In this document: positions 32,357 through 42,955 of the stretch, in pieces | How positions within the stretch are numbered: position 1 is the stretch's first letter | Layout: every line of letters begins with the position of its first letter | DNA from: Nitratiruptor sp. YY09-18 | GTDB taxonomy: Bacteria; Campylobacterota; Campylobacteria; Campylobacterales; Nitratiruptoraceae | Assembly (NCBI RefSeq): GCF_016593235.1 | Contig: NZ_AP023065.1 | Span: forward strand, 1,054,001 to 1,118,000 | Length of the DNA stretch: 64,000 nucleotides | Direction of reading: 5' to 3' | Made by a program: the position numbers and the translations under genes | Notes under the pieces: model-generated | Told to the model about the DNA's origin: nothing | Seen by the model: the letters and a program-made list of their open reading frames with translations, nothing else | Databases searched by the model: none

Positions 32357-33148
32357 CTACCAATCAAGAAACAAAAAGAGGCTAGAGAGGAAGTAGTTGG
32401 CTGCAAATATTGTCATAGCGGCATAGACGACTGCTTTGGTAGTTGCAATTCCTACTCCTCTTGCACCACCTCGTGTAAAATAACCAATATACGTCCCAAT
32501 GATACTGATAAGATAGCCAAAAACTACTGCTTTGATCACACCAGTACCAATATCACTAAATTCAAGATAGGTTGTGATTGTGTTTTTGTATTCAGTGGGA
32601 TTGACTCCAAGTGCTACAGTAGATATGAGGTATGCAGCGATATTTGCCAAAAAAACGAATATGATGACAAGTACCGGCGTAGAGATAGTTGTAGCAATTA
32701 TACGAGGAATCAAGAGATATTTTCTACTATCAATGGCTAATGTATCTATAGCATCGATTTGCTCTGTTACTCGCATCGTTCCAAGCTCTGCAGTCATAGC
32801 ACTTATCGCACGCGATACAAGCATCAAAGCGCCAAAAACAGGACCAAGCTCTTTGGATATAGAGACAAAAATCGTATAGCCCATGAAACTCTCTGCACCA
32901 AATTTATGGAAACCGTGATAGAGCTGGATCGCTTCTACAAGACCTGTAAAAATAGCTGTGAGTGAAATAACAAAGAGTGATCCAACTCCCACTGAGTCGA
33001 TCTGCTGTAAAATCTCATGCATACGCAATGGCGGCTTGAAATAGAGAGGCAAGAGCTTTATTTCAAAAATGATAAATGCACCAAATTTTTCTAATGAGCG
33101 GAAAAATGAGACAAAAGGAAGCCCCATATAGTACAATATACTCTGCAT
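32357..33148 (-). CDS. mlaE: MlaE-family ABC transporter permease
   Basis: 263 residues with five or six TM segments. Family motifs are the EAIQLYHGFHKFGAESFMG region (about 71-89), SKELGPVFGALMLVSRAISAMTAELGTM, and TEQIDAIDTLAIDSRKYLLIPR (about 128-149). It should pair with the MlaF-like ATPase at 11479-12246 in retrograde or anterograde phospholipid transport. It stands alone here without MlaD. Confidence 0.88.
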   Translation of the reverse strand: MQSILYYMGLPFVSFFRSLEKFGAFIIFEIKLLPLYFKPPLRMHEILQQIDSVGVGSLFVISLTAIFTGLVEAIQLYHGFHKFGAESFMGYTIFVSISKELGPVFGALMLVSRAISAMTAELGTMRVTEQIDAIDTLAIDSRKYLLIPRIIATTISTPVLVIIFVFLANIAAYLISTVALGVNPTEYKNTITTYLEFSDIGTGVIKAVVFGYLISIIGTYIGYFTRGGARGVGIATTKAVVYAAMTIFAANYFLSSLFLFLDW

Positions 33149-33197
33149 GCATAGCCCTCTAACTTTTGCGCTATTTTAACAAAAAAAGGCTTTGATT

Positions 33198-33545
33198 ATG
33201 TATATTGGAATCGATTTGATCAAAATAGAGCGTATTGAGAAGATGAGAGAGCGTTTTGGTCATAAGGGTTTGCAGCGTTTTATGCTCCCCAGTGAGATAG
33301 AGACTTTCAAACGGAGCGAATCTATTGCAGGTGTGTGGGCAGCAAAAGAGGCAATCGCCAAAGCTCTTGGCTGTGGTATAGGCAAAGACCTTGCATTTCA
33401 TGATATTCTTCTATCTAAAGATGAAAGAGGTGCTCCAAAAGCGATACTTCTTAATAATAAAGACCAAGTTTTTGGGATTAAAAAAATAGCTCTTTCTATC
33501 TCTCATGATGGCGAATATGCAGTCTGTGCAGTACTCATTGTCTAA
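33198..33545 (+). CDS. acpS: Holo-[acyl-carrier-protein] synthase
   Basis: 115 residues from the ATG at 33198 (SD AGG 8 bp upstream; an in-frame TTG two codons earlier is unlikely). YIGIDLIKIERIEKM (about 2-16) carries the Mg-binding aspartate; WAAKEAIAKALGCGIG (about 51-66) has the catalytic glutamate and lysine; the end reads ALSISHDGEYAVCAVLIV. It attaches phosphopantetheine to ACP. Confidence 0.95.
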   Translation: MYIGIDLIKIERIEKMRERFGHKGLQRFMLPSEIETFKRSESIAGVWAAKEAIAKALGCGIGKDLAFHDILLSKDERGAPKAILLNNKDQVFGIKKIALSISHDGEYAVCAVLIV

Positions 33546-33582
33546 ATATGTTACAATCTGTTATACAATAAAAAGGATATAG

Positions 33583-33977
33583 ATGAAAAAATTGATCATT
33601 GCCTCATTCATAGCAGCTGTAAGTTTAGTTGCCAGCGAACTTCCAAATGGCCAATACGTATGTGCTACAAGTGCGGTTCTAGATAAAGATTTTAAAGTAA
33701 TCAAAAAGATTCCACTAACAAAAGAGAATATTAAAAAGTTTGGCTTTGGTTATACAAAAAAGATAACCTGATCGTCGATGTAACCGGAGAGAAATTTACA
33801 AAAACTGGTACAAAAAATAGTCTCTATTTTTATGAAAATAGTGCAAAAGGTATGAAGCACATCGCTTTGGTATTCAAAGATGGCAAGTATACTGGAAAAG
33901 AGCCATTTACAATGATCGTCGCTTCACCAAAAATAAACTATACCGCTACATGTATAAAACAGGTTAAAAAGAAGTAA
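33583..33977 (+). CDS. Small secreted protein interrupted by a -1 frameshift at a slippery heptamer
   Basis: The zero frame starts at 33583 with an SD AAAAGGA and a signal peptide (MKKLIIASFIAAVSLVAS), and stops at 33769-33771 after 62 codons. The -1 frame continues without a stop to 33977. Joining them at A AAA AAG (33756-33762, in the correct X XXY YYZ phase) gives 131 residues. The joined protein has one cysteine near each end (27 and 124), suggesting a disulfide that only full-length protein could form. I do not know the family. It is either programmed frameshifting, a recent pseudogene, or a homopolymer sequencing error. Confidence 0.65.
33748..33768 (+). promoter_or_regulatory. Candidate -1 frameshift site inside a small inverted repeat
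   Basis: A AAA AAG at 33756-33762 lies in frame (ACA AAA AAG), followed by ATA ACC TGA. GGTTAT (33748-33753) and ATAACC (33763-33768) form a perfect 6-bp repeat around the 9-nt loop that contains the heptamer. No stronger stem-loop is seen downstream. Confidence 0.5.
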
Positions 33978-34178
33978 TCATCCCCCACCTGTAAAGCCAA
34001 GGAACTCAACCTTATCGCCCTCTTTGGGCGTAAACTTTTCCCAATCCTCTTTTTTGACAATCTCCATATTCACTGCAACCGCCATAACTTTATCTTCAAT
34101 TTTTAAATCTTTTAAAATATCAGCTATGCTCTTATTTGGTGCAATATCTTTTTGTTCACCGTTTATTGTTATCAACAA
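33978..34178 (-). CDS. thiS: ThiS-type sulfur carrier protein
   Basis: 66 residues, ubiquitin-like fold, starting MLITINGEQKDI and ending FLGFTGGG. The diglycine-type tail is where the sulfur thiocarboxylate forms for thiazole synthesis. A three-glycine end is slightly unusual but still leaves a terminal GG. It overlaps the upstream ankyrin gene by 23 bp; no other thiamine gene is nearby. MoaD is the alternative, but the size and IADIL segment favour ThiS. Confidence 0.85.
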   Translation of the reverse strand: MLITINGEQKDIAPNKSIADILKDLKIEDKVMAVAVNMEIVKKEDWEKFTPKEGDKVEFLGFTGGG

Positions 34179-34719
34179 TACACTCTCCTTTGGTAAATGG
34201 CTCCATATATTTTGCCACTAAAAATTTGTGTTTTGCATAAGCAAGCTGACAAGGATTCATGCCTAATGCATTTTTTAGATTTGGATTGGCACCCATTTTG
34301 ATAAGGTAATCGATAAGCTTTATATCTCCCATAAATGCAGCCTGATGGAGAGGAGTGATACCGTATCTGTTTTTAGCATTGATATCTGCATCATGTTTGA
34401 TAAGATAGTAGACTATCTTGTATCTTCTTTGCCCTACTGCATAGTGCAGCGGTGTCATGCCGTTGAGATCCTCATCATCTACATCTGCCCCATGCTCTAC
34501 AAGATATCTCACAATGGGGAGATTGCGCATCTTCACTGCCATTATAAGGGGTGTGATGCCGGCTTTTGAGCTCTTTTCGATGTCTGCTCCATAAGTTACG
34601 AGGTATTTTACCTTTTCCAAATCACCCTTATAGATAGCTTCATGGAGCTTTCCCCATCCATTGACACTATCTGCAAGTACGAAGGTTAAAGCTGCTAAAA
34701 AAAGTAGAATTTTCTTCAT
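34156..34719 (-). CDS. Secreted ankyrin-repeat protein
   Basis: 187 residues: a signal peptide (about 1-17), then about four to five ankyrin repeats. Repeats are marked by LHEAIYKGDLEKVKYLV, TPLIMAVKMRNLPIVRYLV, TPLHYAVGQRRYKIVYYLI and TPLHQAAFMGDIKLIDYLI. Likely a periplasmic protein-binding scaffold with unknown partner. An SD AAGGAG sits 5 bp before the ATG, with a TGCTATAAT promoter just upstream. Confidence 0.88.
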   Translation of the reverse strand: MKKILLFLAALTFVLADSVNGWGKLHEAIYKGDLEKVKYLVTYGADIEKSSKAGITPLIMAVKMRNLPIVRYLVEHGADVDDEDLNGMTPLHYAVGQRRYKIVYYLIKHDADINAKNRYGITPLHQAAFMGDIKLIDYLIKMGANPNLKNALGMNPCQLAYAKHKFLVAKYMEPFTKGECIVDNNKR

Positions 34720-42640: not shown

Positions 42641-42955
42641 ATGCAAGAAACACAACTACAAAAATTCAAAAATCTTTTAGAACAGCGATTAGAAAAGATT
42701 GAGAGTGAGATTAAAAATCTTCAAAATGAGTTGGAAGAGTTGGCAAATTACGACAGTATTGATGACTTGGAGGATCTCTCCGTTATTGAAAATATCAACG
42801 ATGATGATAAGGCACTCTTACAAAAACTTTTGTATGAGAGAAAAAGCGTTAAAAAAGCTCTAAAAAAAATCGAAACAGGTGAGTATGGCAAATGTAGTGA
42901 CGGATCAGAGATACCTTTAGAAGTTTTAGAAGCGAATCCTTTACATGAGTGCTAA
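42641..42955 (+). CDS. DksA/TraR-like protein with a degenerate zinc finger
   Basis: 104 residues: an N-terminal coiled coil (about 5-75) and a DksA-type end, KKIETGEYGKCSDGSEIPLE. In DksA the finger is C-x2-C-x17-C-x2-C; here only Cys85 and the terminal Cys104 remain and Gly88 replaces the second cysteine, so a normal zinc site cannot form. It probably still enters the RNA polymerase secondary channel as a transcription factor. It starts 20 bp after pncA and ends 3 bp before fur. Confidence 0.75.
   Translation: MQETQLQKFKNLLEQRLEKIESEIKNLQNELEELANYDSIDDLEDLSVIENINDDDKALLQKLLYERKSVKKALKKIETGEYGKCSDGSEIPLEVLEANPLHEC

Follow-up and report, generated by a model that had tools for sequence, protein, structure and literature searches.

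In E. coli, dnaX and the IS3 family use programmed -1 frameshifts at the heptamer A AAA AAG, and in dnaX the shift yields the shorter of the products. With stimulators present this heptamer ranks with the most efficient ones of E. coli, while without them shift-prone heptamers exceed a background of ~0.05% by a factor of only about 2 to 10 (PMC4066793). Homonucleotide repeats are also the places at which indel hot spots and slippage-bypass sites coincide (PMC3812077). Transcriptional slippage is known from longer runs, which for A means n > 7 (PMC3711429), and in Citrobacter rodentium tssM1 is rescued by an A11 tract at about 20% (PMC4256274).

Here we considered a locus of the deep-sea vent bacterium Nitratiruptor sp. 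YY09-18 at positions 33583-33977 of the window, that is, of the whole stretch of 64,000 nucleotides that was analysed, where two ORF halves are offset by one base at an A tract. An earlier note had read this locus as an exported protein expressed through a -1 frameshift, and what it described of the sequence was found as claimed: the heptamer in the phase of frame 0, the stop two codons after ACA AAA AAG, the 71 further codons open in the -1 frame, a cysteine in each frame and the repeat flanking the A run. The features, in window coordinates, are the following:

33572..33577, plus strand: AAAGGA-like stretch 5' of the ATG at 33583, read from the sequence as a probable ribosome-binding site
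33583..33771, plus strand: frame-0 ORF of 62 aa, with a signal-peptide-like N terminus MKKLIIASFIAAVSLVAS and Cys27, ending with TGA at 33769-33771
33748..33753, plus strand: left inverted-repeat arm GGTTAT, 5' of the A run
33756..33762, plus strand: A AAA AAG in frame-0 phase, the point at which the sequence is one base short of an uninterrupted 131-aa frame
33763..33768, plus strand: right inverted-repeat arm ATAACC, 3' of the A run
33762..33977, plus strand: -1 frame of 71 codons with Cys124 and a stop at 33975-33977, second half of the gene

The A6 run occupies 33756-33761 and the frame-0 ORF ends with GGT TAT ACA AAA AAG ATA ACC TGA, while the -1 frame, entered at G33762, begins with GAT AAC CTG. 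Reading through the junction gives a product of 131 residues that carries both Cys27, from frame 0, and Cys124, from the -1 frame. The coding character of the two halves was evaluated with a codon-usage model derived from 271 long ORFs in the 464 kb around the locus. The frame-0 half scores 0.233 bits per codon and the -1 half 0.283, typical gene windows having a mean of 0.244; among chance ORFs within genes, of 70 codons or more, none scored as high as the -1 half (0/891), and no further lesions were found in it. A structure model of the -1 half alone is meaningless (pLDDT 42). Throughout the 464 kb scanned, this junction is among the very few start-less joins of two coding-like frames. Two separate genes, the second starting within the -1 frame, would account for the open -1 frame and for nothing more; however, no ATG, GTG or TTG was found near the junction and the first in-frame ATG lies 83 nt past the stop, deep in the coding-like stretch, which makes such an arrangement very improbable. 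Because codon usage is gene-like in both halves and no start lies near the junction, the view that they are one interrupted gene for an exported protein of 131 aa is well supported, and this part of the earlier reading stands.

The gene appears to be an orphan. No homologue of the read-through protein was found in 60 relatives, in 397 genomes of the phylum, or among GTDB contigs, viral contigs and plasmids, and searches of PDB, Pfam and NCBIfam with the read-through protein and with the -1 half gave no homologue, the best matches in the homologue searches with both being unrelated proteins at chance level. Looking for paralogues by the motif P.G.Y.C also gave none. The orphan sits between acpS and the convergent thiS, and where genomes of the same genus retain the acpS-thiS neighbourhood, no gene was found between these two. 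Downstream of acpS (window 32357-34719), the genomes of the same genus carry either a thiS/ankyrin-repeat or an mlaE-like neighbourhood. Since no homologue was found in the collections searched, the ancestral frame of the orphan cannot be proved from orthologues, nor can a conserved position of the frameshift be shown, and the latter counts against a programmed event.

Programmed -1 ribosomal frameshifting would here mean a slip from AAA AAG to AAA AAA that yields the 131-aa and the 62-aa products at a set ratio. The in-phase heptamer fits this explanation, given its efficiency in E. coli with stimulators, and so does the intact, gene-like -1 half. The only tRNA-Lys on the chromosome is UUU, in two copies, which is a further point in favour. 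tRNA-Lys(UUU) alone is the background in which A AAA AAG slips in E. coli. The 16S tail of YY09-18 carries CCTCCT; however, no GGAG/AGGA-like word that could act as a Shine-Dalgarno-like stimulator is present in the 22 nt 5' of the heptamer, AAAAGTTTGGCTTTGGTTATAC, and the upstream stretch TTTGGCTTTGGTTATAC also has no SD-like sequence. As the earlier note had stated, a classical downstream hairpin is absent: folding downstream of the site is no better than that of shuffled sequences (z +0.20 and +0.24, pseudoknots being outside the folding model). The short segment with the GGTTAT/ATAACC hairpin, whose 6-bp stem has the slippery site in its loop, does reach z -2.5 and could be taken in favour of a programmed site. 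A stem of this kind is melted by the ribosome before it reaches the slippery site, and it is not a classical stimulator. Perfect stems of at least 6 bp occur around 31 of the 3,762 A6+ runs in genes (about 0.8%), and the enclosing inverted repeat is a mild oddity. Against a programmed event we also count the low yield of stimulator-free heptamers in E. coli and the nature of the short product, which adds only about 44 residues to a signal peptide. The heptamer is the one feature that supports programming, all the others being lacking, and we consider this explanation unlikely. The claim of an expressed -1 frameshift is therefore the part of the earlier reading that was not supported, as stimulators are absent and the heptamer itself is common.

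How common it is was evaluated in the coding ORFs of the chromosome, which contain 296 in-phase copies of A AAA AAG, and in the 271 genes of the 464-kb segment, which contain 65; its presence in so many ordinary genes argues against a programmed role, as does dnaX of YY09-18, which was taken as a positive control and has no in-phase A AAA AAG. The heptamer is mildly under-used, since 21% of the codons preceding AAA AAG end in A, versus 31% of all codons, the corresponding values before the other Lys-Lys pairs being 23% to 37%. We then removed in silico one A from the A7+ runs found in genes. This left an in-phase A AAA AAG in about 231 of 1,114 runs (20.7%), and in 43% of the 1,114 it left some in-phase slippery A heptamer. 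From this rate, a suitable heptamer in the suitable phase can be regarded as a by-product of the loss of an A; and since a single-A deletion produces it in about one fifth of A7+ tracts, in A-rich genomes heptamer and phase by themselves say little in favour of programmed frameshifting.

The earlier note had also counted two split genes of this kind in the window, but when all in-phase copies of A AAA AAG present there were scanned, only the orphan was obtained. Window positions 42851, 48016 and 63874 proved to be matches in the wrong frame of intact genes, and candidate 721592, from the heptamer scan of the chromosome, looks like a chance upstream frame. The second split at A AAA AAG lies outside the window, at about 838,377 of the chromosome on the minus strand, in a gene for a rhodanese-domain protein. 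When the chromosome was scanned for joins of two coding frames lacking a start, a handful more broken genes, including this one, was obtained (chromosome positions):

about 837985-838490, minus strand: exported rhodanese-domain protein (loci L145 and L164), split at an in-phase A AAA AAG, the -1 frame coding for the domain
1678657-1679216, plus strand: exported outer-membrane-barrel-like protein (loci L176 and L179), with a one-base frame change at a non-slippery place
about 1302440 and 1301685, minus strand: type III-A cas10/csm1, which frame shifts divide into three pieces, with an A9 run at the second junction
about 1297586, minus strand: csm5-like gene, in which coding goes on in the -1 frame beyond the stop

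For the rhodanese, the comparison with orthologues was possible. Its split site is CAA AAA AAG (A7), while in orthologue L151 the same peptide, MQKKGA, is coded by CAAAAAAAAGG (A8). Orthologues uniformly in a single frame speak against a frameshift as the normal way of expressing a gene, and this is what was found, all of the strong ones (8/8) being in one open frame. The orthologues of the barrel-like protein are also intact, at 78% and 75% identity. The three pieces of Csm1 (Cas10) span profile positions 4-155, 156-396 and 399-753, the csm5-like gene probably carries another frameshift near its end, and the type III-A system may be decaying. Single-base indels in YY09-18 thus hit slippery and non-slippery places alike. 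Both breaks derived from presumed A7+ tracts, those of the orphan and of the rhodanese, left A AAA AAG, for which the rate of 20.7% gives a chance of about 4%.

A run of six bases seldom troubles Illumina sequencing. It could still be asked whether the true tract is A7 and leaves the gene intact, the break being an error of sequencing or assembly, as the orphan is broken by just one base within a homopolymer, and the same record has several more homopolymer breaks. However, no split housekeeping gene appeared in the junction scans, and the genome, with a chromosome of 1,732,647 bp and a plasmid of 24,473 bp, belongs to isolates sequenced by Illumina MiSeq mate pairs (PMC9723563), because of which a miscall of the A6 run is improbable.

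We favour, with a probability of about three in four, a frameshift mutation that is specific to this strain and hit a lineage-specific gene coding for a small exported protein; it would be at most leaky and not programmed. As expected of an indel in a homopolymer, the orphan consists of adjacent coding frames offset by one base at such a run. The lineage-specific gene would have encoded the exported protein of 131 aa, whose two cysteines probably become disulfide-bonded after export. In YY09-18 one base would then have been lost, most simply one A of a putative ancestral A7 tract, through replication slippage, so that normal translation would yield 62 residues only. The A6G tract that is left reads A AAA AAG in frame, and a few of the ribosomes may slip there by one base into the -1 frame and make the full-length protein; any such leak would be incidental and not programmed. 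An extra A added to part of the mRNA by transcriptional slippage would restore the frame as well, and the rescue of tssM1 is a precedent; but the tract is just A6, short of the about 8-9 A or more that this process calls for and of the known cases cited above, and we give this route hardly any credit.

Some observations go against a mutation. The collections searched gave no homologue in which an ancestral single frame could be seen. The -1 half is intact, which points to a recent break or to a product that is still being made; the coincidence of about 4%, the sole tRNA-Lys(UUU) and the rarity of the enclosing repeat (0.8%) also weigh on that side. Two of these points, namely that both breaks of long A tracts left A AAA AAG and that the -1 half of the orphan is free of lesions, keep alive a leaky reading, according to which losses in A tracts are retained when they result in an in-phase A AAA AAG, since stimulator-free slippage with tRNA-Lys(UUU) yields enough full-length protein. 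We regard this as unlikely. If it were true, leaky -1 frameshifting would express the orphan as well as the exported rhodanese, and a leak shown at both sites would make tolerance of indels by slippage testable in a free-living bacterium. Rescue of indels is known from endosymbionts, and the two genes would then be a free-living counterpart to it.

Compared with the known systems, the orphan resembles dnaX and the IS3 family in having the same heptamer in the same phase, with a -1 frame that stays open past the frame-0 stop. It differs from them because it has no SD-like element upstream, no hairpin or pseudoknot was seen downstream, no conserved position can be shown and no need for two products is known. 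With indels bypassed by slippage (PMC3812077), such as the one of tssM1 (PMC4256274), it has in common an A-tract indel at which slippage of ribosome or polymerase could partly restore the frame, although its tract is short and for the orphan the bypass is only predicted. With the singleton class of GeneTack, which corresponds to indel mutation or sequencing error (PMC3711429), we found no difference: the orphan, like the members of that class, has no homologue cluster sharing its break and is a case of one genome with a single-base offset at an A run.
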